64,000 nucleotides of DNA from the NCBI RefSeq assembly GCF_000282595.1, contig NZ_AKIZ01000022.1, positions 372,001 through 436,000 of the forward strand, in the 5' to 3' direction. The position numbers and the translations under genes were made by a program. Origin of the DNA: Phyllobacterium sp. YR531 (lineage in GTDB: Bacteria > Pseudomonadota > Alphaproteobacteria > Rhizobiales > Rhizobiaceae). Every line of letters starts with the position of its first letter. Within the stretch, counting starts at the first letter, position 1. The notes beneath the pieces were generated by a model. It was given only the letters and a program-made list of their open reading frames with translations. It was not told the DNA's origin and ran no database searches. Positions 15,669 through 27,962 of the stretch are shown in pieces.

Positions 15669-16889
15669 TCAGGCCTTGGCGGTCTCGCCCCGGACTTCCC
15701 GCATACTTGGCAGGAAAATCGTCAGCAATCCGAGGAATGGCAAATAGGCGCAGACAGCATACACAAAGTCGATGCCCTTGATATCGGCAACAAAACCCAG
15801 AACAGCTGCCGCAATGCCGGCCATGCCAAATGCAAACCCGAAGAAAATACCGGCAATCATTCCAACCCGGCCCGGAACCAGTTCCTGAGCGAACACAACG
15901 ATGGCAGGAAAGGCGGACGAGAGAATAAAGCCGATGATGACTGTCAGCACGCCCGTCCAGAACAGGCTGGCATAGGGCATCATCAGGGTAAATGGCAGGA
16001 CGCCAAGAATGGAGAACCAGATCACCGCCTTTGTGCCGATCTTGTCGCCAATGGGTCCACCGAGCACTGTGCCCAAGGCAGCCGCGCCGAGGAACAGGAA
16101 CAACATCATTTGCGACTGCTGTACCGTGATCGCGAACTTGTGGATGACATAGAAGGTGTAATAGCTGGAGATACTGGCCAGATAGATATTCTTGGTGAAG
16201 ACCAGCAAGGTGAGGATTATCAGCGATGTGATGACCTTGCCGCGTGGCAGCTTCAAGACCCGGCTCGCAGCTGGCTTGTTCGCATTCGCGGCGCGGTAAC
16301 GCTGATACCAGTTGCCGACCTGATAAAGGATGATCATGCCGACAAGAGCGGCGGCCGAAAACCAGGCAATGCTTTGCTGACCGCGTGGCAAAACGATGAA
16401 TGCTGCCAGCAATGGACCAAGCGCCGTGCCGAAATTTCCGCCAACCTGAAAGAAGGATTGGGCCAGTCCATGCCGTCCACCTGATGCCAGACGGGCAACG
16501 CGCGACGATTCCGGATGGAATATCGAAGAACCAATGCCAATGAACGCAGCACCGGCAAGCAGCATCGCATAATGGGTGGCTATGGAGAGAATGCCGAGAC
16601 CTACCAGCGAAAACGCCATCCCGACAGGCAACGAATAGGGCATGGGGTGCTTGTCGGTATAAGTACCTACGATTGGTTGCAGCAGCGATGCCGTGACCTG
16701 AAAGGTCAATGTCAGAAAACCGATCTGCTTGAAATTGAGGCCATAATTCTCTTTCAGCATCGGATAGATGGCCGCAAGAAGCGACTGCATCATGTCATTG
16801 AGCAGGTGACAGAAACTGACGGCAAAAATGATTGCAAAGACGGTTGTTTCAGCGGAAGAACGCTGCGCAGGCATAGCTGTGTCGGTCAT
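15669..16889 (-). CDS. MFS exporter, fosmidomycin-resistance (Fsr) family
   Basis: A 406-residue, 12-helix major facilitator. The family pattern is clear: FCHLLNDMMQSLLAAIYP in helix 1, the QPIVGTYTDKHPMPYSLP loop, IGIGSSIFHPESSRVAR, and SFFQVGGNFGTALGPLLAA. E. coli Fsr, also 406 residues, exports fosmidomycin. The start at 16889 was chosen because it gives the family length and N-terminus. It is divergent from the symporter gene at 17193, and a 41-bp element repeated before the AraC-type gene lies 82 bp upstream of its start, suggesting shared control. Confidence 0.88.
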   Translation of the reverse strand: MTDTAMPAQRSSAETTVFAIIFAVSFCHLLNDMMQSLLAAIYPMLKENYGLNFKQIGFLTLTFQVTASLLQPIVGTYTDKHPMPYSLPVGMAFSLVGLGILSIATHYAMLLAGAAFIGIGSSIFHPESSRVARLASGGRHGLAQSFFQVGGNFGTALGPLLAAFIVLPRGQQSIAWFSAAALVGMIILYQVGNWYQRYRAANANKPAASRVLKLPRGKVITSLIILTLLVFTKNIYLASISSYYTFYVIHKFAITVQQSQMMLFLFLGAAALGTVLGGPIGDKIGTKAVIWFSILGVLPFTLMMPYASLFWTGVLTVIIGFILSSAFPAIVVFAQELVPGRVGMIAGIFFGFAFGMAGIAAAVLGFVADIKGIDFVYAVCAYLPFLGLLTIFLPSMREVRGETAKA

Positions 16890-16970
16890 AGGAACAGTCC
16901 ATCGAGATTCGAGCAAGAGGCAGTTATCCGACGCCTCAACCAATCCTCATATAGAAGTTGTATGACACCT

Positions 16971-17011
16971 GCTTTCGTGGTTTGGTCCATTTCTTTCGCG
17001 AGTGGGCCAAA
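16971..17011. promoter_or_regulatory. 41-bp operator-like element, copy 1
   Basis: This element matches 18082-18122 at 36 of 41 positions. Its core 16981-17011 begins TTTGGTCCA and ends TGGGCCAAA, a spaced inverted repeat. It lies between the divergent MFS exporter and symporter genes. Repetition next to a regulator gene with the same orientation and spacing suggests the binding site of the AraC-type protein encoded at 18126. Confidence 0.65.
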
Positions 17012-17020
17012 TGCACTTCT

Positions 17021-17088
17021 GCCCGGTATTCCGGGCCAGGATTTGCGGGGGATATCAGATGCCGCCATCGCGCCGATACAAGTTGTAT
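17021..17088. promoter_or_regulatory. Further palindromes in the divergent spacer
   Basis: GCCCGG-TATT-CCGGGC forms a perfect 6-bp stem at 17021-17036, and ATACAAGTTGTAT is a perfect odd palindrome at 17076-17088. Both sit in the 303-bp gap 16890-17192 between the MFS exporter and the symporter. The gap also holds copy 1 of the 41-bp element; no gene is supported in it. Function is unknown. Confidence 0.35.
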
Positions 17089-17192
17089 TCGAAGCCGATA
17101 TGACGTTGAGTGGCTACAGCTTATTGGGGAGTGATGAGCATCCTTTCGCGCTGTACTGACGTGTAAAGGGAGGAAGTATTCGAGGGGGAACC

Positions 17193-18065
17193 ATGGAAGA
17201 TAATCTGGCGCTGACAATATTCTTGCCCGTGTCACTGGGTGTCATCATGCTTGGGCTGGGACTGGCCCTGACATCAAAAGATTTTCACAATGTGCTCAAG
17301 GCGCCGAAAGCGGTTCTTGTGGCACTTTTCTGCCAGACATTCATTCTGCCGCTTGCCTGCCTTGGTCTTGTTTACCTGTTCAATCTTGAACCAGCGCTCG
17401 CAGTCGGGATGATGTTGCTGGCGGCAAGCCCGGGCGGTACTTCCGCCAATCTCTACAGCCATCTTGCGGGTGGGGATGTGGCACTGAATATCTCTCTGAC
17501 AGCTGTGAATTCCGCGCTTTCCATCATCACGCTGCCGTTGATTGTAAATTGGTCTCTGGCGCATTTCTTTTCTGAAGGACAAGCAATCCCGCTGCAGTTC
17601 TCCAAGGTGATACAGGTATTCGTCATTGTGCTTGGGCCGGTGATTATCGGCATGTGGCTGCGCCACCGTTATCCGGATTTTGCCAAGAGGATGGAGCGTC
17701 CCGTCAAAACTTTGTCCCTTATCTTCCTGTTGCTGGTCGTTCTTGTAGCGCTCGTACAGGAATGGGAGACATTGCGGATCTGGGCTCCAATCGTCGGGCT
17801 TGCCGCTCTAGCCTTCAATCTGGTCAGTCTGGCTGTCGGCTATTTTGTGCCAAGGACGGTCGGTATCGATAATCGGCAAGCCACGGCAATCGGGATGGAG
17901 ATAGGCATTCACAATGGTACGCTTGCCATCGCCATTGCACTCAGCCCCTTCCTGCTGAACAACCCGACCATGGCGGTGCCTGCAGCAATTTACGGGCTGA
18001 TCGCCTTTATTACGGCAGCGCTCTTCGGCTACTGGCTGAAGACGAGGGGCGCAGCTCATATATAA
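17193..18065 (+). CDS. Bile acid:sodium symporter family permease
   Basis: A 290-residue membrane protein with about nine or ten helices. The BASS-family landmarks are AASPGGTSANLYSHLAGGDVALN, with the helix-breaking core, and GMEIGIHNGTLAIAIAL. Members transport organic anions with sodium; bacterial substrates are rarely known. A GGGGGAA ribosome site precedes the ATG. Its neighbours are an Fsr-like exporter and a NimR-like regulator, both close to copies of the same 41-bp element, suggesting joint regulation in response to a small organic compound. Confidence 0.87.
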   Translation: MEDNLALTIFLPVSLGVIMLGLGLALTSKDFHNVLKAPKAVLVALFCQTFILPLACLGLVYLFNLEPALAVGMMLLAASPGGTSANLYSHLAGGDVALNISLTAVNSALSIITLPLIVNWSLAHFFSEGQAIPLQFSKVIQVFVIVLGPVIIGMWLRHRYPDFAKRMERPVKTLSLIFLLLVVLVALVQEWETLRIWAPIVGLAALAFNLVSLAVGYFVPRTVGIDNRQATAIGMEIGIHNGTLAIAIALSPFLLNNPTMAVPAAIYGLIAFITAALFGYWLKTRGAAHI

Positions 18066-18081
18066 ACATTGAGTAGCGTCA

Positions 18082-18122
18082 GCTTTCGTGATTTGGTTCA
18101 TTTCTTACGAGAGTGAGCCAAA
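18082..18122. promoter_or_regulatory. 41-bp operator-like element, copy 2
   Basis: The 31-bp core 18092-18122 begins TTTGGTTCA and ends TGAGCCAAA, a better inverted repeat than copy 1. It ends three bases before the ATG of the AraC-type regulator, so binding would block either transcription or the ribosome region, a common arrangement for autoregulation. Confidence 0.65.
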
Positions 18123-18125
18123 TTC

Positions 18126-18953
18126 ATGCGCTACAAGACTTTTCCGGGCACAGCCTCTACCGCACTGGAGCTGGAGAACCTCCACCAGTTGCGGCTGACA
18201 TGGCTGGACCAGACGGAAGGCGATGTGCTCGCGCTGGCAACCGCATACCCCGCCGGGCAGCACATTCCCCATCATCATCACAATCAATCACAGTTGCTGC
18301 ATGCAGTGTGCGGGGTCGTGATGGTTACGACGAAGTTCGGGCGATGGATGGTGCCTCCGCATCATGCCCTGTGGCTGCCAGCGGGCATTGAACATGCTGT
18401 CGACATGTTCGGTGATGTATCCATGCATTCAATCTATGTGCGGCCGGAATCGGTCGATGGGCTAAAGGACCACTTGCATGTGGTCGGCCTGACACCGCTC
18501 ATGGACAATCTTATCCGCGAAGCCGTGAACCTGCCAGCAAATGCTGCTGCCAACACGCGCGCGGCGTTTGTGATGGGGTTGTTGCTGCATGAGATACCAA
18601 ATCTGCCCGAACGCCCTCTGGGACTGCCCTTTCCGACAGATCGCCGGTTGGCGGCGCTTTGCCATGATTTTCTCAAAGCCCCCTCGCCGCACACGAATAT
18701 AGATCATTGGGCCGATGAGCTTGGCATGAGCAGGCGCACTTTCACCAGAGTGTTCCGGCGTGAAACAGGCATAAGCCTTTCCACATGGCGGCAGCAGGCA
18801 TGTCTGCTTGCGGCCTTGCCGCGCCTGACCGAGGGTGAGCAGGTGACCAGTGTTGCGCTTGACCTCGGCTACAATAGTGTTCCGGCCTTTACCACCATGT
18901 TCAAACGAATGCTGGGAACCGCGCCGCGCAGCTATCTCTATGCGGGTACCTGA
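18126..18953 (+). CDS. AraC-family transcriptional regulator, NimR-like with cupin sensor
   Basis: A 275-residue regulator. Residues about 30-110 form a cupin (AraC_binding) domain with a histidine-rich metal-like motif (QHIPHHHHNQSQLLHAV). The C-terminal third carries two helix-turn-helix units, LGMSRRTFTRVFRRETG and VALDLGYNSVPAFTTMFKRMLG. E. coli NimR, a regulator of a drug-exporting MFS gene, has this layout. It follows the symporter gene and is probably the regulator of the symporter and MFS exporter through the two 41-bp elements. The ribosome site is weak, so expression may be low. Confidence 0.88.
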   Translation: MRYKTFPGTASTALELENLHQLRLTWLDQTEGDVLALATAYPAGQHIPHHHHNQSQLLHAVCGVVMVTTKFGRWMVPPHHALWLPAGIEHAVDMFGDVSMHSIYVRPESVDGLKDHLHVVGLTPLMDNLIREAVNLPANAAANTRAAFVMGLLLHEIPNLPERPLGLPFPTDRRLAALCHDFLKAPSPHTNIDHWADELGMSRRTFTRVFRRETGISLSTWRQQACLLAALPRLTEGEQVTSVALDLGYNSVPAFTTMFKRMLGTAPRSYLYAGT

Positions 18954-18954
18954 T

Positions 18955-19902
18955 TCAGCCGAGCTTGATGAGGGTTTTACCTGCAGAGCGGCCCTTGCGG
19001 CTTTGTTCAACCGTCTCGGGCACCTCGTCGAGAGAGATGACCTTGTCTACAGGAACAATGACGCCGCCTTTCACCACATGATCCACCAGACGATCCAGAA
19101 GTTCATGATCCGCTGACAGTTCAAAATTTCCGCCTTTCAGCGAAAGCTTCTGCAATTCGGAATCATTGGCGACGAACGCGGTTGTGAAAGCCGTACCGCC
19201 TTTCCTGACCTGCGAGGCAAGAGCAGAGAATTCCGCTGCATCGCTCATCAGGTCGATCAACCCGTCAATGCCTTCCGGGTAAAGTTGGCGCAGCTGTTCT
19301 GAGACGGCAGAGGACGTGTGATCAATCGTGGCAGTCGCTCCAAACTCACTCATATGCGCGGCTTTGGCGGCGCGAGCCGTTGCAATAACCTTGAGTCCCA
19401 AAGTAGAGGCCAGCTGAACTGCAAAGGAGCCCACTCCGCCGGTTGCGCCGACGATCAGCACGGTCGATCCCTTTGGCAGTTCCAGTTGTTCAATCATCTG
19501 GAGTGCGGTCATACCGGCAGTGGGAAGTGCTGCGGCCTGAAGAATATCCAAGGTGCCAGGCAATTTCTTCAACAGATTGGAGGCGGGAACGCGGGCATAT
19601 TCCGCATAGGGGCCTTCGCCGAGCGGCATATGCAGGAACTGGCCGAATATCGTATCGCCAGCGGAAAAATTGGTAACGTCCGCGCCGCAGGATTCAACGA
19701 TACCGGCAGCATCATTGCCAAGCACCAGAGGAAAGACATGAGGTGCCTTACCCTCTAGAATTCCATCAGCCACTTTCCAGTCAAACGGATTGATGGCGGC
19801 CACGAGTATCTTGACGAGTATCTGGTCATTCTTGGGCTGAGGTTTAGTAACCTCAATGAGTTCCACTTTCGCGCCAAATGACGGGACGGCTGCAGCACGC
19901 AT
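18955..19902 (-). CDS. NADP-dependent quinone-oxidoreductase-like protein (zinc-free MDR)
   Basis: A 315-residue medium-chain dehydrogenase/reductase. It shows the GroES-like N-terminal domain (VAAINPFDWKVADG, PLVLGNDAAGIVE) and a Rossmann fold with GATGGVGSFAVQLA around residue 155. The zinc ligands of classic alcohol dehydrogenases are absent, as in the quinone oxidoreductase subfamily, which reduces quinones or enones with NADPH. It starts 3 bases after the YhhN gene, so it is the last gene of a leftward operon with two ether-lipid-type enzymes. It might reduce an aldehyde or enal product of that pathway; this is a guess from context. Confidence 0.87.
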   Translation of the reverse strand: MRAAAVPSFGAKVELIEVTKPQPKNDQILVKILVAAINPFDWKVADGILEGKAPHVFPLVLGNDAAGIVESCGADVTNFSAGDTIFGQFLHMPLGEGPYAEYARVPASNLLKKLPGTLDILQAAALPTAGMTALQMIEQLELPKGSTVLIVGATGGVGSFAVQLASTLGLKVIATARAAKAAHMSEFGATATIDHTSSAVSEQLRQLYPEGIDGLIDLMSDAAEFSALASQVRKGGTAFTTAFVANDSELQKLSLKGGNFELSADHELLDRLVDHVVKGGVIVPVDKVISLDEVPETVEQSRKGRSAGKTLIKLG

Positions 19903-19905
19903 AGA

Positions 19906-20583
19906 TCATCTCCAGACTGATGACCGCGCAATGAACCATTGAGCGGCAAAATAGGTGGAAAGAACCCAAAGTCCTTCCAGCGGAATATCAAAACGGAACT
20001 TGCCATAGGCAAGGATGCTATCGCTTATCATAAATAATATTGCACCAGTGGCGGCGGATCGCGAAGCGCTGTTTGCCAGGATTTGCGTTCGAGCAATTGC
20101 CTGAGCCGCCATCAACGCCAGAACGATGGCATAGACCACTACCGGGGCCTTGATATTCGATGGCAGGACAGACCAAAGGCCGCTCACCATGGCGACTGCG
20201 AGGATGAGGCAGATAAGGAAAGTCAGCTGGCGTGCCCCAAAACGGACATCGCTGGTGAATGCTGCAATATAGCAGCAATGCGCCACGAGAAAGCAAACGA
20301 GACCCTGTATGAAGTAATCCTGCGGCAGCATCAGAAAAACATCGCCGCATAGCGAAAAAGCCAATCCGGCAAGGATAGACCATCTATAGCGTGCCGGAAC
20401 CCCTGCGGATGCTGTGAGAACGATGACCAGCAGCAGAACAATTGCCAGCGGCTTTGCGATGTAATGCAGCCAGCTCCAGTCCGGGCCCGCTATTCTTGTC
20501 AAAATTGCCGTCACAGCGACAATCGCGAACACTATATTCAGGCTCTTGAAGGTGCCGGGCTTCGTCTGCAGTTCAACGGCCAT
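19906..20583 (-). CDS. YhhN/TMEM86 family protein, putative lysoplasmalogenase
   Basis: A 225-residue protein with about eight membrane helices. Family marks are the conserved acidic positions in SLCGDVFLML and FMISDSILAYGKF. Characterised members (human TMEM86B and a Legionella YhhN protein) hydrolyse the vinyl ether bond of lysoplasmalogens to a fatty aldehyde and a glycerophospho-alcohol. It sits 17 bases after an alkylglycerol-monooxygenase-like gene and 3 bases before an oxidoreductase, which strengthens a role in ether-lipid turnover. Confidence 0.85.
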   Translation of the reverse strand: MAVELQTKPGTFKSLNIVFAIVAVTAILTRIAGPDWSWLHYIAKPLAIVLLLVIVLTASAGVPARYRWSILAGLAFSLCGDVFLMLPQDYFIQGLVCFLVAHCCYIAAFTSDVRFGARQLTFLICLILAVAMVSGLWSVLPSNIKAPVVVYAIVLALMAAQAIARTQILANSASRSAATGAILFMISDSILAYGKFRFDIPLEGLWVLSTYFAAQWFIARSSVWR

Positions 20584-20600
20584 ATTATTTTCTCCTGACC

Positions 20601-21533
20601 CTAAAGCTTTGGCAAGCCAGCCTTGCCCGCCTCTTCGGGGTGAAGCCGGACATAATCAGCCTTCAAATGTTCGGACGTCTTGCGGCTGCCATCATGACTC
20701 CAGCCGGGAGGCGCAAACAGATAGAGCAGCCGCTGGCGCAATGTGAGACCGGGTGAAAACGCATCCTTGAACATTCCAACCCACTCATGGAATGCGACGC
20801 GCAACGGGTTGAACGTCGCAACATTGTGGACAATGCCATAACGAGGCGCGTCTTCTTCCAGCTCTGCAACGAAGGTGCCGAACATCCTGTCCCATATGAT
20901 CAGCACGCCTGCATAATTGGCATCGAGATAACGCGGGTTCGTGCCGTGGTGGACGCGATGATGCGATGGTGTGTTGAAGACAAGTTCAATTGGACGCCAC
21001 AGTTTTCCTATTGTCTCGGTGTGAATCCAGAACTGGTAGACAAGATTGAAGCCGAACACAAAAGCGAGGGCGGCGGGGTGAAACCCTAATAGTACCAAGG
21101 GTATCGACAGGATAAACATGCCGGTGAATTCACCGGTCCATGATTGGCGCAGGGCCGTTGAAAGATTGTAATGCTGGCTGGAATGATGATTGACGTGGGA
21201 GGCCCACCCCCAGCGCATCCGATGCTCAATGCGGTGCACCCAGTAATAGCGCAGATCATCAAGCAGGAAGGCGAGCAGCAGCACCCACCAGCTCAAGCCA
21301 AGATCATAGAATCGGAACTGCCAAATCCATAAAAGGGCAGTGAGAGAGACAAAGCCGAGCAGAAGAGCCGCAACCACGCTGCCGACGCCCATCAGAAGGC
21401 TGGTGGCGGTATCCTTTGTTTCGAAATCGCCCTTGCGCCGTAGATAACGGATCGCCACCAGCTCGATTAGAATCGCGACGATATAAAAGGGAACGGCGAG
21501 TTTCGTAACATCAAAGAACTGCGATTCGGTCAT
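20601..21533 (-). CDS. Alkylglycerol-monooxygenase-like fatty acid hydroxylase superfamily protein
   Basis: A 310-residue integral membrane di-iron enzyme. The eight-histidine motif is complete: H100 and H104 (HRIEH), H113, H116 and H117 (HVNHH), and H192, H195 and H196 (HRVHH), with H121, H171 and H191 nearby. The segments YNLSTALRQS, NLVYQFWIHTE, NTPSHHRVHHG and NYAGVLIIWDRMFGTF closely recall alkylglycerol monooxygenase (TMEM195), which cleaves glyceryl ethers with tetrahydrobiopterin. A sterol desaturase is the broader family name. The start at 21533 has GGAGG 9 bases upstream. It overlaps the preceding gene by 23 bases. Confidence 0.85.
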   Translation of the reverse strand: MTESQFFDVTKLAVPFYIVAILIELVAIRYLRRKGDFETKDTATSLLMGVGSVVAALLLGFVSLTALLWIWQFRFYDLGLSWWVLLLAFLLDDLRYYWVHRIEHRMRWGWASHVNHHSSQHYNLSTALRQSWTGEFTGMFILSIPLVLLGFHPAALAFVFGFNLVYQFWIHTETIGKLWRPIELVFNTPSHHRVHHGTNPRYLDANYAGVLIIWDRMFGTFVAELEEDAPRYGIVHNVATFNPLRVAFHEWVGMFKDAFSPGLTLRQRLLYLFAPPGWSHDGSRKTSEHLKADYVRLHPEEAGKAGLPKL

Positions 21534-21963
21534 GTGCCATATCCTCCGCAGGGTTAAATTTCGTTGCAAGCCAGCCCAGTGCAACATCCCGGCTGGCTGT
21601 ATCGCTGAAAGAAAATGTGCTGCCGGGCCAGGTGAAATCGCGAATTGTCAGTTTCAGGCCAGCCTGTCCTATCGGCTCTGCCGAAAGAATATCGTCACGT
21701 GCAAAATCGCGGGTCAGAAAGCGATTTCCAAAACCATGGACAATGCCAATACGGTCATTCGTCAACAACAGGAAAGCTGTACGACGATCAGATGAATAGA
21801 TGATACGGCTGATCGTTTCTTCGGGGAAATCCTGCTGGAAAATAGACGCCGTCTGATCATCGGTTTGAAGGGATGGGCGGCGGCTGCCACCCGCAAAATG
21901 CGTAGCAAGGATCGCCACCGGCAAACCAATCATGATCATGATGATCAGCGTGCCCAGCCCCAT
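21511..21963 (-). CDS. Small membrane-anchored protein of unknown function
   Basis: About 150 residues from the ATG at 21963 (GGGAG ribosome site 10 bases upstream); an in-frame ATG at 22017 would add 18 residues. One N-terminal helix (MGLGTLIIMIMIGLPVAILA) is followed by a soluble domain of about 115 residues with alternating strands (RRTAFLLLTNDRIGIVHGFG, FTWPGSTFSFSDTASRD). No family recognised. It overlaps the hydroxylase gene, so it probably belongs to the same operon and may help that enzyme in the membrane. Confidence 0.7.
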   Translation of the reverse strand: MGLGTLIIMIMIGLPVAILATHFAGGSRRPSLQTDDQTASIFQQDFPEETISRIIYSSDRRTAFLLLTNDRIGIVHGFGNRFLTRDFARDDILSAEPIGQAGLKLTIRDFTWPGSTFSFSDTASRDVALGWLATKFNPAEDMAHDRIAVL

Positions 21964-22003
21964 CAATCCATTACTCCCGATATGGATAGTCACTCCCCGC
22001 AGC

Positions 22004-22048
22004 CACCTCATATCCATATTACGTAAAAGTCAATACGGATATGAGGTG
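22004..22048. promoter_or_regulatory. 12-bp inverted repeat between divergent-back ends
   Basis: CACCTCATATCC at 22004-22015 is the exact reverse complement of GGATATGAGGTG at 22037-22048, with a 21-base loop. It lies just upstream of the putative ether-lipid operon and 30 bp beyond the stop of metH, so it could be the metH transcript terminator (no T run seen) or an operator for the operon. Confidence 0.45.
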
Positions 22049-22077
22049 TTCGACAGGCTTGGGAGGCCTTGGAGCTT

Positions 22078-25000
22078 CTATTCCGCTGCTAAGATGCGCG
22101 GTTGAGGGACGTAATTTAGAATAGGACCAAGCCAGCGCTCGACATCTTCAACCGGCATGGATTTACGCTCGGAATAATCTTCAACCTGATCCCGCTCTAC
22201 CTTGGCAACGCCGAAATAGTAGGATTCCGGATGCGCAAGATAAATACCGGAAACGGATGAGCCCGGCCACATGGCATAGCTTTCCGTGAGGCGGACATTA
22301 ATCCTTGCTTCTGCATCGAGAATACGGAACAGCGTCTCCTTTTCCGTATGATCTGGCTGTGCCGGATAGCCGGGAGCTGGACGAATGCCGCGATAGGGCT
22401 CGCCAATCAGCTCTTCGGGCGCAAGCTGCTCATCGGGCGCATAGCCCCAATATTCCTTTCGCACCCGCTCATGCATCAACTCGGCAAAGGCCTCGGCAAA
22501 ACGGTCAGCCAGAGCCTTGACGAGGATTGACGAATAATCGTCATTGGCACGCTCGAAACGCTCGGCAATGGCGATTTCCTCAATGCCTGCCGTAACAACA
22601 AAAGCGCCGATATAATCCTGCTTGCCGCTATCCAGCGGCGCAACAAAGTCGCTGAGCGCGACATTCGGGCGGCCATCGCGCTTCGATAGCTGCTGGCGCA
22701 ATGTATAAAAGGTCGCCAGTTCTTCACTGCGCTGTTCATCGGTGAAGACGCGAATGTCGTCGCCTTCCGCACCAGCAGGCCAAAGGCCAATGACGGCTTT
22801 CGGATTGAACCATTTTTCAGCAATGATCTTGGTCAGCATTGCCTGTGCATCGTCGAACAATTGACGGGCTGCAGCGCCCTGCTTTTCATCTTCAAGAATA
22901 GCCGGATAGCGTCCCTTCAATTCCCACGTCTGGAAGAAGGGTGTCCAATCGATGTAATTGGCGATCTCTTGAAGATCATAATTCTCGAAGATGCGCGTAC
23001 CGATAAAACCCGGCTTGGGTGGTGTGTACTCTGACCAGTCAATCTTGTGTGCATTGGCCCGGGCTTTTGCCAGCGGCAGCCGCTGTTTATCGGCTTCATT
23101 GCGGGCATGGGCGTCGGCAACCTTTGCATATTCGGCGCGGATTGTTTCTACATAGCCGGGTTTGATGTCTTTCGACAAAAGGTTGGAGACAACGCCGACG
23201 GCGCGGCTCGCATCCGTTACATAGATGGTCTGTCCCTGATTATAGCGGGGGTTGATCTTGACTGCCGTATGCACACGGCTTGTCGTTGCCCCGCCGATCA
23301 GCAACGGAATGTCGAAGCCTTCCCGTTCCATTTCAGCGGCTACATGCACCATCTCATCCAGAGAGGGCGTGATCAGTCCCGAAAGGCCGATAATATCCAC
23401 ATTCTGCTCACGAGCCGTTTGCAGAATCTTGGTTGCAGGTACCATGACGCCAAGATCAATGATCTCGTAATTGTTGCAGGCAAGCACGACGCCAACAATG
23501 TTCTTGCCAATATCGTGCACATCGCCCTTCACGGTTGCCATCAAAACCTTGCCAGCGCTTTCGCGCTCGCCCGTACCGCCATTGGCCAGTTTTTCTGCTT
23601 CCATATGGGGCAGAAGCACGGCCACGGCCTGTTTCATCACGCGGGCGGATTTCACCACTTGAGGGAGGAACATTTTACCGGCACCGAAAAGATCGCCGAC
23701 AACATTCATGCCCGCCATCAGCGGCCCTTCAATGACATGCAGGGGCCGGGCTGATTCAAGCCGGGCCTCATCCGTATCGATGTCGATGAATTCTGTGATG
23801 CCATTGACCAGCGCATGTTCAATGCGTTTGCCAACAGTCCATTCGCGCCATGCAAGGTCACGCTCGCGTGTCTCCTTGCCCGCTGAACCCTTGTAGCGTT
23901 CTGCAAGGTCAAGCAGACGCTCGGTCCCATCATCGCGCCGGTTGAGCACGACATCTTCGCACGCCTCACGCAGCTCAGGATCGATCGATTCATAGACTGC
24001 GAGCTGGCCTGCATTGACAATACCCATATCCATGCCGACCTGAATGGCATGGTAGAGGAAGACAGCATGCATGGCTTCGCGCACCGGCTCATTGCCACGG
24101 AACGAGAAGGAAAGATTGGAAATGCCGCCGGAGATGTGAACATGCGGCAAGGTTTCTGTGATCTGCTTCGTTGCCTCGATAAAGGCAACGCCATAGCCAT
24201 TATGCTCTTCAATGCCGGTGGCGACAGCAAAGACGTTGGGATCAAAGATAATGTCTTCCGGCGGGAAACCGGCTTCTTTGGTGAGCAGCTCGTAGGCGCG
24301 GGTGCAGATTTCAACTTTGCGCTCCAGTGTATCCGCCTGCCCTTCCGTATCGAAGGCCATGACGACAACAGCGGCGCCATAGGCTCGCACTCTCTTTGCG
24401 TAATATAGGAATGCCTCTTCGCCTTCCTTCATGGAAATGGAGTTGACCAGGGGCTTGCCCTGAACGCATTTCAAACCCGCCTCGATGACATCCCATTTGG
24501 AAGAATCGATCATCACCGGAACACGCGCGATATCAGGCTCGGCTGCGATCAGGTTAAGGAATTCGATCATCGCCTTTTCGCTGTCGATCAGACCTTCATC
24601 CATGTTGATGTCGATAATCTGCGCGCCATTGGCCACCTGATCACGGGCGACATCCAGCGCCGTCGCATAATCGCCCGCGGTGATCAGCTTGCGGAATTTT
24701 GCAGAGCCGGTGATGTTTGTACGCTCACCGACATTCACGAACGGAATATCCTTGGTGAGCGTAAAAGGCTCCAGACCCGACAGCCGCATATGGATGGCAA
24801 TATCGGGCACCGCGCGCGGCGGGTATTTTCCGACAGCCTCGGCAATGGCCTTGATGTGTTCCGGCGTCGAGCCACAGCAGCCGCCGACAATGTTGAGAAG
24901 GCCTTCACTGGCAAAGCCTTCAAGCTGAGCTGCCATGGCCTCAGGGCTTTCGTCATACTGACCGAATTCGTTAGGCAGACCGGCATTCGGATAGGCGCAG

Positions 25001-25854
25001 ACGAACGTATCGGCAACATTTGAAATTTCGGCAAGATGCGCGCGCATGGCGTTTGCACCCAATGCGCAATTCAGCCCGATCGTAAAGGGCTGCGCATGGC
25101 GCACCGAGTTCCAGAAAGCAGTCGGTGTCTGGCCGGAAAGTGTACGCCCGGACAAATCGGTAATTGTCCCGGAAATCATCACCGGAAGGACTATTCCCTT
25201 TTCCTCGAAAACTTCGTTGGTTGCGAAGATTGCAGCCTTTGCATTGAGCGTATCGAAGATGGTTTCGATCAGGATGATATCGGCACCGCCGTCAATCAGA
25301 CCACGAACCTGATCGGCATAGGCAATGCGCAAATCATCGAAGGTAACAGCGCGGTAGCCAGGGTTGTTGACATCCGGGGACATGGAGGCGGTGCGATTTG
25401 TCGGGCCAAGCGCACCAGCGACGAAGCGCCTGCGGCCATCCTTCTGCTCAGCTTTGATCGCCGCACGCCGCGCAAGGCGCGCACCATCCCGGTTCAGTTC
25501 ATAAACCACCTCTTCCATGCTGTAATCAGCCTGGGCAATTGTGGTCGATGAAAACGTATTGGTTTCCAGAATATCCGCACCCGCCATTGCATAGGCGTAG
25601 TGGATATCTTCAATCGCCTGCGGCTGTGTGAGAATCAGCAGGTCGTTATTGCCTTGCAGGTGGCACGAGCAGTCTCCAAAGCGGTCTCCGCGGAAATCCT
25701 GCTCGTTAAGGTTCAGCCCCTGAATCTGTGTGCCCATGGCACCATCAAGTATAAGTATGCGTTCTTTTGCAGCCTTGGTCAGGGCCGCGAAAACTTCTTT
25801 TCCATCCCGAGGAGCGCCCATGGGACCAAAAAGATTATCAACCGCATTATTCAT
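22078..25854 (-). CDS. metH: Cobalamin-dependent methionine synthase
   Basis: Transfers a methyl group from 5-methyltetrahydrofolate through cobalamin to homocysteine. All four modules are present in 1258 residues: homocysteine domain (zinc ligands C263, C326 and C327, the last two in [10 protein letters not shown]), folate-binding domain ([13 protein letters not shown]), cobalamin-binding domain with the axial histidine H780 in DVHDIGKN, and the C-terminal reactivation domain binding S-adenosylmethionine (near [12 protein letters not shown]). The start at 25854 gives the usual N-terminus; a longer form would run through the upstream palindrome. No cobalamin riboswitch was recognised upstream. 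Confidence 0.96.
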
Positions 25855-25900
25855 AACTCGACACGCCTCAAAACCAATATTTGGGTGAGGTCTCAAGATC

Positions 25901-25923
25901 ACATAAAGATATGTTTATGTCAA
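25901..25923 (-). promoter_or_regulatory. Palindrome overlapping the metH promoter region
   Basis: ACATAAAGATATGTTTATGT at 25901-25920 is self-complementary at 9 of 10 pairs. On the metH strand a TTGACA box (25918-25923) overlaps its edge. ArsR-type regulators of the methionine cycle (SahR/SamR) use AT-rich palindromes of this kind, so a methionine-cycle operator is plausible. The regulator is not encoded here. Confidence 0.5.
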
Positions 25924-26046
25924 CAAATCAATTCTGCATGCGGCATGTTATGTCGCAGCTGAATATAGAGGTTGAGCACTGCTGCGCGACCATTGCCGTG
26001 AGTTGTAATGCGATGAGTATGTGTTGGATGAAAACCCGGACAGTAA

Positions 26047-26844
26047 TCAGGTGACCGCAGATTGCGGCAAGATAAACGGCACATGGGCAGCAGGCAGAAC
26101 GCCAACTTTGAGCGCGCATTCATAGACGCGTAAAATGCGCTCGTCCGTAAGGATTTCCTGCGGAGCACCCACGGCATCCACGCGCCCTTTATGCATAACG
26201 ACAACACGATCCGCATACATGGATGTCAGGTTGAGATCGTGCAGAATTGCAATGACACCGCCGCCCCGTTTTGCAAAGGACCGAGCAATTTCCATAATGA
26301 TCAGCTGATGCTTGATATCGAGACTGGATACGGGTTCGTCCAGAAACAGGAACCGTGGCTGATTGTCCACCACGGGCTGCCAAACCTGGCATAGAACACG
26401 AGCCAGTTGCACACGTTGCTGCTCACCGCCAGACAATTCCTGATAGAAACGGCCACCGAACCCGGCAAGATCAACCAGCTCCAGAGCCTCTTCAGGCAGA
26501 TGCGCGATGTTCTTTGCCGAGCCGAGAGAGCGTCCGCTGGTCAGCCCGAGCTTTATGATCTCGTGTACCGTGAACGGAAATGCCAGTGATGTGGCTTGGG
26601 GCAGGATGGCGCGCATTGCTGCCATCTGCCAGAGCTTCAGGTGCTTTACGGAATGTCCATTGATGGACACTGTTCCGGTATAGGGCAGATCACCGGAAAG
26701 AGCGCGCATGAGGGTTGTCTTGGCAGAGCCATTGGGTCCGACAATGACTGTTATCTCTCCGGCAAGAGCATCGAAAGCCGCATTATGCACGATTTGAGAA
26801 CGGCCCAGATGGACGCCGAGGTCTGAGATGTGAATCATGGTCAT
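26047..26844 (-). CDS. hmuV: Haem ABC transporter ATP-binding protein
   Basis: A 265-residue ATPase that drives haem import through HmuU. Signature LSGGEQQRVQLARVL, Walker B RFLFLDEP and the switch histidine in AILHDLNL are normal. The Walker A is unusual: GPNGSAKT at 36-43, with alanine where GxxxxGK[ST] normally has glycine. The start at 26844 overlaps the hmuU stop (ATGA), as expected in this operon. It is the last gene of hemP-hmuSTUV. Confidence 0.92.
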   Translation of the reverse strand: MTMIHISDLGVHLGRSQIVHNAAFDALAGEITVIVGPNGSAKTTLMRALSGDLPYTGTVSINGHSVKHLKLWQMAAMRAILPQATSLAFPFTVHEIIKLGLTSGRSLGSAKNIAHLPEEALELVDLAGFGGRFYQELSGGEQQRVQLARVLCQVWQPVVDNQPRFLFLDEPVSSLDIKHQLIIMEIARSFAKRGGGVIAILHDLNLTSMYADRVVVMHKGRVDAVGAPQEILTDERILRVYECALKVGVLPAAHVPFILPQSAVT

Positions 26845-27962
26845 AGGTCCAGAATGCCGCGCTTGCGCAACAATATCCAAAGGAAGACCGGGGCACCGAC
26901 AGCTGCCGTGACGATGCCTATCGGCAGTTCTGCAGGCGCAACGATTGTGCGGCTGACGGCATCGGCGAGAAGCAGGAGGCTTCCTCCAAGCAAAGCAGAA
27001 GCAGGCAGGAGATAGCGATGGTCCGGCCCTATGGCGAGCCGTAGCAGATGCGGAACGACGACGCCGATAAAACCAATGACGCCACTGACAGCCACGGAAG
27101 CGCCGGTGGCTGCGGCGACCGCAATGATGGCGATGATCTTGAAGCGCTGCACGGGAATGCCAAGATGGCTGGCGGTGGCTTCACCCAATGCAAGCCCATT
27201 GAGACCCCGAGCCAGAAAGGGTGAAATGAGCAAGGCCATGACAATGAACGGACTTGTTGCGGCGATTTTCATCCAGCTGGCACCGGCAAGCGAACCCATG
27301 AGCCAGAACGTCAGGTCACGCAACTGGCGATCATCGGCGATGTAAGTGAGCAGCCCCATATAGGCCATGGCCATTGCCCCAAGCGCAATGCCGGCCAAAA
27401 GCATGGTTGCGATGGAAGTCTGCCCCCGTCGCGTGGCCACACCATACAAAATGAAGGTGAAGAGCAGGGCACTGCTGAATGCTGCAAGCGGCAAGGCATA
27501 AAGGCCCAGCAGTGCAATAACCGGAGCGAACACGCTGCCGCCCAGTACGATTATGCTCAGTGCTCCGAGGCCCGCACCGGCAGAAACACCGACAATGCCC
27601 GGATCAGCCAAGGGGTTACGGAACAGCCCCTGCATGACTGCACCGGAGACTGCAAGCGATGCGCCAATCAAGGCTCCCAGAATGACGCGCGGAAGACGAA
27701 TGTCATAAATGATGATGCTGTCGCGCACTGACAGGGCATCGGGAACACCGCGCGTTTCCTGTAGCAGCGATCCAATGACGGAAATCACCGATGCATCAGA
27801 AGCGCCGGCGGCCAGGCTGAACAGGAATGTTACTGCAAATGCTACCGCGAGTATGGCAATGACAATCTTTGCCAGAAAGGAGCGATCGCCATCGGCGCGA
27901 CCTTTCCTGCCGTCCTGCTTTGAATGCAGGGCAGCAGGCTTCATAAGAACGGCCTCGCTCAT
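26841..27962 (-). CDS. hmuU: Haem ABC transporter permease
   Basis: A 373-residue FecCD-family permease with about ten helices; residues 1-30 are a hydrophilic cytoplasmic tail. Landmarks are the coupling-helix region around LGEATASHLGIPVQR and the conserved GFIGVVVPHLLRLAIGPDHR. It forms the inner-membrane channel of the haem importer with HmuV, receiving haem from HmuT. It overlaps hmuT by 4 bases and hmuV by 4 bases. Confidence 0.94.
   Translation of the reverse strand: MSEAVLMKPAALHSKQDGRKGRADGDRSFLAKIVIAILAVAFAVTFLFSLAAGASDASVISVIGSLLQETRGVPDALSVRDSIIIYDIRLPRVILGALIGASLAVSGAVMQGLFRNPLADPGIVGVSAGAGLGALSIIVLGGSVFAPVIALLGLYALPLAAFSSALLFTFILYGVATRRGQTSIATMLLAGIALGAMAMAYMGLLTYIADDRQLRDLTFWLMGSLAGASWMKIAATSPFIVMALLISPFLARGLNGLALGEATASHLGIPVQRFKIIAIIAVAAATGASVAVSGVIGFIGVVVPHLLRLAIGPDHRYLLPASALLGGSLLLLADAVSRTIVAPAELPIGIVTAAVGAPVFLWILLRKRGILDL

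Follow-up and report, generated by a model that had tools for sequence, protein, structure and literature searches.

Within the window (the whole 64,000-nucleotide stretch of Phyllobacterium sp. YR531 DNA analysed here), four minus-strand open reading frames occupy positions 18955–22017. Their intergenic gaps of -23, +17 and +3 bp bear out the four packed leftward genes described in the original prediction. The first, P0004 (21511–22017, minus strand; 168 aa), encodes a small, apparently membrane-anchored protein of a family without a name. It is followed by P0001 (20601–21533, minus strand; 310 aa from the ATG at 21533), an AGMO-related di-iron membrane hydroxylase of a short type; P0002 (19906–20583, minus strand; 225 aa), a YhhN/TMEM86-family protein; and the last gene, P0003 (18955–19902, minus strand; 315 aa), a medium-chain NAD(P)H-type oxidoreductase. 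Between metH and P0004 lies an inverted repeat (22004–22048, no strand assigned; 17-nt arms, 11-nt loop), from its sequence a possible operator or terminator candidate. Its perfect-arm pattern occurs once in the genome; no inverted repeats of at least 11 nt were found upstream of the hydroxylase–YhhN pair in five other Phyllobacterium loci, and an Rfam search of 16500–27000 at gathering thresholds returned no matches.

P0001 matches the FA_hydroxylase family (Pfam PF04116, E = 4.8e-29). The eight-histidine set that had been called complete is indeed all there (H100, H104, H113, H116, H117, H192, H195 and H196), and the segments quoted earlier, for example NTPSHHRVHHG, are present in the sequence. 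We matched residues of P0001 to AGMO/TMEM195 (EC 1.14.16.5) by spacing from the human positions given in the available text of PMC7911779 and PMC3617469, not by sequence alignment. All nine essential AGMO histidines (the eight plus H201) have counterparts at near-matching spacing, and AGMO Q162, D233, N235, Y236, W243 and D244 correspond to P0001 Q130, D204, N206, Y207, W214 and D215. According to the available portion of PMC3617469, Q162, H201, D233, N235, Y236, W243 and D244 are essential in human AGMO, three of which (H201, W243 and D244) are shared across the superfamily. The counterparts of the other four, Q162, D233, N235 and Y236, are therefore the more telling, and by its residues P0001 is closer to AGMO than the generic eight histidines alone would make it.

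The AGMO resemblance first proposed thus extends to nine histidines and six further essential residues, but not to the whole protein. The position of AGMO Glu137 is Arg105 in P0001, the AGMO C-terminal domain (AGMP_C, PF24858) has no Pfam match in P0001 at E ≤ 0.1, and AGMO has 445 aa against the 310 aa of P0001. In some long bacterial proteins, AGMP_C gives weak matches below its cut-off. Arginine occupies the 137 position in P0001 itself and in 14/14 aligned family orthologues. In the parts of PMC3617469 available to us, E137 binds tetrahydrobiopterin in AGMO, and the E137A mutation raises the cofactor Km 18-fold and stands outside the list of activity-abolishing mutations. OlsE, the ornithine-lipid hydroxylase, shares a superfamily with P0001 and was rejected as its identity (47.9 bits versus the NCBIfam NF052566 equivalog cut-off of 475 bits). 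The fatty-acid 2-hydroxylase Scs7p (4zr0) is 15% identical to P0001 over the aligned part and was not matched by phmmer with P0001 against PDB sequences. That PDB search gave weak bisphosphoglycerate mutase matches alone (E = 0.03 or worse), which we took as chance, and Foldseek with the predicted P0001 model returned no significant matches.

P0002 matches YhhN (Pfam PF07947) at E = 8.7e-49, with 166.1 bits against a cut-off of 25.6. Residues K44, G80, D81, H102, G180, S187, D188 and Y211 are invariant in the YhhN alignment and match, by motif and spacing, the eight TMEM86A residues that the available text of PMC11994398 proposes as catalytic in TMEM86/TMEM86A. The YhhN/TMEM86 assignment made earlier therefore holds, and P0002 is probably a lysoplasmalogenase. 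With the YhhN/TMEM86 lysoplasmalogenases of Legionella, M. tuberculosis and mammals it shares the Pfam family and the eight proposed catalytic residues; eight transmembrane helices are a named feature of this family in the available part of PMC9052158. It differs from them in its gene linkage to an AGMO-like hydroxylase, a link that goes unmentioned in the available portions of PMC11994398 and PMC9052158. A PDB sequence search with P0002 gave zero matches.

The two families tend to occur together. A survey of the phylum covered 398 genomes: both families were present in 76, the hydroxylase without YhhN in 31, YhhN without the hydroxylase in 29 and neither in 262, an odds ratio of 22 (20.5 by genus), uncorrected for kinship. 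The pair lies within 1.5 kb in 9 of the 76 genomes holding both families, five of the nine as one frame; among 44 same-contig pairs, the nearest beyond this 1.5-kb set are 34.9 kb apart. Proximity of the hydroxylase and YhhN exceeds chance. In a family that contains the Comamonadaceae, 34 of 200 genomes (25 genera) encode an AGMO-type hydroxylase and YhhN as a single polypeptide. The fusion is also found in 64 of 80 named loci (Delftia, Acidovorax, Variovorax and others), a ratio that is not a frequency, as these loci are the best matches to a fusion used as query. As adjacent separate genes in YhhN–hydroxylase order, opposite to that of the window, the pair occurs in Dyella, Fulvimonas and one further genome, and it is linked in further taxonomic families, in one of them with a single gene in between. 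That the pair occurs in three forms, as a fusion, with the hydroxylase leading and with YhhN leading, points to a repeated association, and fusion and adjacency in other bacteria support a joint function. Neither a bacterial AGMO nor an AGMO–YhhN operon or fusion was described in the titles and abstract openings among the matches listed.

Within the fusions, the 137 position holds Glu in 50/64 and another residue in 14/64, which makes it a soft marker either way. Pfam AGMP_C does not match the fusions; judged by eye, their YhhN part follows a C-terminal part resembling that of unfused long proteins. A possible origin of the AGMO C-terminal domain as a YhhN remnant was discarded: when the C-terminal parts of 15 long unfused proteins were compared with stand-alone YhhN proteins, hhalign gave a probability of 0.2%.

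P0001 and P0002 resemble the two membrane enzymes that degrade ether lipids in animals. Since their relatives are fused in other bacteria, the hydroxylase and YhhN probably act together. We put at about 50% the reading that the two genes encode a two-enzyme module that strips ether-linked chains off (lyso)glycerophospholipids at the membrane; judging from the sequences, joint cleavage of ether lipids is a likely role of such pairs in general and a plausible one here. For the substrates, direction and reductants of such a module we infer the following scheme. Acting on saturated alkyl lysolipids, the di-iron hydroxylase would add a hydroxyl group to the carbon beside the ether oxygen; the resulting hemiacetal would then break down. 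Hydroxylase and YhhN would each yield a long-chain aldehyde and a glycerol headgroup, jointly covering both ether-lipid classes, and the pathway would serve to scavenge or detoxify lipids from outside. The Arg-type hydroxylase may use another reductant instead of tetrahydropterin, or bind tetrahydropterin more weakly. In this strain, P0003 may reduce the aldehydes or enals. It carries ADH_N (PF08240) and ADH_zinc_N (PF00107) domains, which agrees with the oxidoreductase predicted as the last gene, and is a possible aldehyde/enal reductase; its best NCBIfam match is PIG3-type (119 bits versus a cut-off of 297), and no curated NCBIfam cut-off was reached among the best 25 of 43 matches. P0003 adjoins YhhN in this genome, but its predicted link to the pair did not extend to five other pair-bearing Phyllobacterium genomes, where no homologue was found near the pair in 18-kb stretches.

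The ether-lipid degradation operon of the original prediction is partly supported: for it speak the conserved residues, the linkage and the fusions elsewhere; against it stand R105, the missing C-terminal domain, the place of P0001 in the hydroxylase phylogeny and the restriction of the YhhN neighbour to one genus of the family. In a tree of bacterial sequences, P0001 belongs to a clade made up mainly of short proteins (90/99 support). The fusions and most bacterial proteins as long as AGMO fall in a separate group, in which several deep branches lack resolution. Because P0001 lies outside that group, the fusions bear on it indirectly. The gene immediately upstream of the hydroxylase is a P0004 homologue in 29 of 30 family loci, counting the window (tblastn); the 30th genome likewise has a homologue (HMM), and one also lies directly upstream of the hydroxylase in further alphaproteobacterial families: P0004 is the conserved upstream partner of the short hydroxylase in alphaproteobacteria. 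Neither Pfam nor NCBIfam matches it at E ≤ 0.1, and its true start is probably codon 19 (window position 21963), where most aligned homologues begin matching. Just upstream in 26/30 family loci is a squalene/phytoene-synthase-family gene, which could hint at another lipid. All this, with the invariant R105 and the missing C-terminal domain, fits a short Arg-type hydroxylase that works with P0004 on some lipid of the bacterial membrane, at an acyl chain, headgroup or isoprenoid, and not on an ether lipid, YhhN having joined for another reason or acting on a different lysolipid. We consider this a substantial alternative, though on balance a doubtful one, given the retained counterparts of AGMO Q162, D233, N235 and Y236, the wide miss of the OlsE cut-off, and the fact that within the genus the hydroxylase and YhhN always occur together and side by side.

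Of 20 Phyllobacterium genomes, 6 carry orthologues of the two genes side by side and 14 lack both. In the family set of 199 genomes, 37 hold both families and adjacency occurs in two only, both of the window's genus; neighbour conservation thus holds for the pair within the genus, whereas the family-wide partner is P0004, with YhhN beside the hydroxylase in one genus only. Unrelated lipid genes might have become neighbours once, by neutral rearrangement in an ancestor of six related species, with the fusions a different subfamily: the six genomes may belong to a single clade and so count as effectively one event, and flanks differ (metH at the window locus, others at five other Phyllobacterium loci). 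We hold this quite improbable, as the pair was kept together despite changed flanks, both orthologues are jointly missing from 14 relatives, and linkage of the hydroxylase and YhhN families recurs in other taxonomic families, and also in Dyella and Fulvimonas, in different gene arrangements. In a variant compatible with the two-enzyme module, P0001 would, R105 notwithstanding, be a genuine AGMO that depends on tetrahydropterin and draws tetrahydromonapterin from the supply pathway of phenylalanine hydroxylase. The genome carries genes for phenylalanine hydroxylase and pterin-4a-carbinolamine dehydratase (PCD), which makes a reduced-pterin pool likely and speaks to the question of pterin source raised at the outset; the 137 position varies even among fusions, and E137A is not listed as abolishing activity in the available text of PMC3617469. 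Genome content, however, does not separate Glu- from Arg-type hydroxylases: PCD is near universal (70/74 genomes), and phenylalanine hydroxylase (E ≤ 1e-30) occurs in 17/20 Glu-type genomes, 22/34 Arg-type genomes and 6/20 genomes without the hydroxylase. We rate this variant as unlikely.

Turning back to the ether-lipid module, plasmalogen of the strain's own making seems an unlikely substrate; the plasmalogen desaturase CarF/PEDS1 (PF10520) was found in 0/40 genomes, in a search whose positive control had no match either. Phyllobacterium is a plant-associated genus, the strain itself probably a soil bacterium, and ether phospholipids are not something that plants are known for. Only tentatively, as a proposal we lean against, may Proteobacteria have a dedicated ether-lipid system with AGMO-type and TMEM86-type enzymes as one unit (fused in Comamonadaceae, operon partners elsewhere), of which the window would hold an Arg-type version that has moved off tetrahydrobiopterin.

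The available text of PMC3617469 describes AGMO as labile and not purified, with no homologue crystal structure in 2013, and that of PMC9052158 asks why bacteria making no plasmalogens carry YhhN. An AGMO–TMEM86 fusion would physically join the two known ether-lipid breakdown enzymes, bear on YhhN in bacteria without plasmalogens and, in easily grown bacteria, offer a test system for mechanism; the Glu/Arg contrast at the 137 position offers a direct way to probe pterin use. The predicted structure of a fusion has a pLDDT of 80.3; parts of its hydroxylase core score below 50.

As the original prediction had it, four leftward genes are packed on the minus strand of the window, from 22017 to 18955, with spacings of -23, 17 and 3 bp: P0004 (21511-22017; 168 aa, in no known family), P0001 (20601-21533; 310 aa, FA_hydroxylase), P0002 (225 aa, YhhN protein) and P0003 (315 aa, medium-chain oxidoreductase). 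An ORF matching metH lies upstream of the cluster, and a convergent gene for an AraC-type regulator lies downstream. In a plasmid collection the metH ORF had its best matches in six Phyllobacterium records (78-83% identity), which makes Phyllobacterium the probable genus. Between metH and the operon is an inverted repeat (22004-22048; 17 nt, 94% complementary, 11-nt loop) that is found only once in this genome; a search of the corresponding stretches in five related loci turned up none of at least 11 nt.

Within the window's genus, 6 of 20 genomes had an orthologue of the hydroxylase (E < 1e-190), and YhhN was present in those six, adjacent to the hydroxylase each time; P0003 was not found next to the pair in the five besides the window's genome. 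Neither orthologue was found in the other 14, one of which (G211) gave a weak distant hydroxylase match. In a 199-genome family set, counted by reading tables, 66 genomes carried the hydroxylase with at least 59% identity (in one case divided between two contigs), some YhhN occurred in 48 at E <= 0.001, and 37 had both. Neighbourhood of the two genes, which the original prediction proposed to survey, was thus seen in all carriers in the genus but not in the rest of the family set, where only the two members of that genus had the pair adjacent.

Across the phylum, a survey of 398 genomes (hydroxylase profile at E <= 1e-30, PF07947 at E <= 1e-10) found both proteins in 76, the hydroxylase only in 31, YhhN only in 29 and neither in 262, giving a co-occurrence odds ratio of 22 (20.5 by genus), uncorrected for relatedness. 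The two lay within 1.5 kb in 9 of the 76 genomes with both; among 44 same-contig pairs, the next nearest was 34.9 kb apart. Five of the nine, all from one family (f43), were a single open frame with Pfam matches to both domains. The remaining four were the window, G556 (adjacent), and G525 and G542 (the pair separated by a single gene, which Pfam places in the AraC type in G525). At L138 and L139, loci from two genera, one gene (AraC-type by Pfam in L138) separates an Arg-type, AGMO-length hydroxylase from a YhhN gene.

When GTDB genomes were scanned with the fusion as query, 64 of the best 80 of at least 586 relatives had both domains in one ORF, which is no frequency because the query was the fusion; carriers include Delftia tsuruhatensis, Acidovorax, Variovorax, Hydrogenophaga and Ramlibacter. 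Three of the best 80 (two Dyella, one Fulvimonas) had separate adjacent genes in the order YhhN-hydroxylase, and 13 had a hydroxylase with no YhhN recognised in the stretch examined. In the Comamonadaceae-containing family of G293, 34 of 200 genomes (25 genera) matched at least 560 of 577 fusion-model positions in one place, two of them interrupted by one stop codon within the match; in many others the two parts were in separate places. The fusions may have a single origin. That AGMO-like hydroxylases and proteins of the YhhN family function jointly is supported by their fusion, by their adjacency in both gene orders and by their co-occurrence. No description of a bacterial AGMO, or of an AGMO-YhhN operon or fusion, appeared among the full-text literature matches listed (judged by title and abstract start, with few subscription papers among them), so that this silence is no proof of novelty.

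At the position of the tetrahydrobiopterin-binding E137 of AGMO (alkylglycerol monooxygenase), P0001 has Arg (R105), as do most short rows of an 84-row alignment in which P0001 is duplicated, one fusion has two rows, another row is partial and one is a YhhN frame lacking a hydroxylase. Glu occupied it in all five fused frames, in 10 of the 14 unfused rows that are 400-470 aa long and in both rows of 580-605 aa. Exceptions were short alphaproteobacterial proteins with Glu (L094, L097-L100, L047), long rows with Arg (L138, L139), Thr (L137) or Gln (L150), and L141 (382 aa), with Arg. The three unfused Dyella/Fulvimonas hydroxylases were Glu-type. The 64 fusions, from named genomes, had E in 50, R in 5, V in 5, T in 2, Q in 1 and G in 1; Glu/Arg is therefore no strict marker of architecture. 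At residue 103, inside the first metal-binding motif, P0001 reads HRIEH vs HRIAH in 13 other aligned family orthologues. The AGMO-type open frames of 580-605 aa, L142 (3647-5464) and L143 (3351-5093), are longer at the N-terminus by about 170 residues, which may reflect no more than a start codon called too far upstream; both match the C-terminal domain of AGMO below the cut-off.

In a tree of 80 rows with the 137 column left out, P0001 fell in an Arg-type clade (support 100/98). This clade is nested in a larger, alphaproteobacterial one (100/96), in which 26 proteins have Arg, 6 have Glu and 1 has another residue, and the larger clade belongs to a group of 55 proteins, most of them short (90/99); outside stood the fusions and the AGMO-length proteins except L088. 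Deeper branch order is in part not settled, and long branches drew a warning from the program. On this tree Glu/Arg needed 6 changes vs 19.5 in shuffles, and no fused member was seen in P0001's clade in the data examined.

P0002 carries K44, G80, D81, H102, G180, S187, D188 and Y211, invariant in the eight rows of protein alignment A3 and, by motif and spacing, counterparts of the proposed catalytic residues of the lysoplasmalogenases TMEM86A/B. In the study that proposed them (PMC11994398), activity fell below 10% after mutation of most of the eight; H104 and G182 of TMEM86A were exceptions, as were H108 and S182 of TMEM86B. At L140 (3634-5457), a 607-aa open frame has YhhN at its end and no recognised hydroxylase in front.

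Acting on lyso ether lipids, AGMO and lysoplasmalogenase chemistries both free long-chain aldehydes, so the simplest joint role would be ether-lysolipid clearing, in which the module would remove both alkyl and alkenyl species. For the window's pair we infer an ether-lipid role by kinship, with a probability of about 0.5. Its substrate would come from outside, since a search of 40 genomes gave no hit to a plasmalogen desaturase family, with the caveat that no control matched either. A less probable reading is that P0001 acts on another membrane-lipid substrate, as its short Arg type, its clade without fusions seen and its wider-kept partner, P0004, might suggest. Pterin markers do not decide the reductant used: the window's genome has phenylalanine hydroxylase and pterin-4a-carbinolamine dehydratase, and among 74 genomes, sorted by the type of hydroxylase read in each, the former (E <= 1e-30) occurred in 17 of 20 with the Glu type, 22 of 34 with the Arg type and 6 of 20 without hydroxylase, and the latter in 70 of 74.

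In alphaproteobacteria, the short hydroxylase has P0004 as its conserved partner. A homologue stood directly upstream of the hydroxylase in 29 of 30 family loci, the window counted, and was recovered by HMM in the 30th genome; homologues also lie upstream of the hydroxylase in two further alphaproteobacterial families and, weakly, in a third. Its true start is probably 21963, where most aligned homologues begin. A Pfam search of P0004 gave no match. Judged by eye, P0004 has one apparent N-terminal membrane helix; it also has a small domain, in which 17 columns are invariant in alignment A4 of P0004 and its homologues. Within the flank examined, a squalene/phytoene-synthase-family gene lay upstream of P0004 in 26 of 30 family loci (loci concerned: L006-L031, L061-L063). 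The window and the same-genus L003 lack this gene upstream, and both have YhhN downstream.
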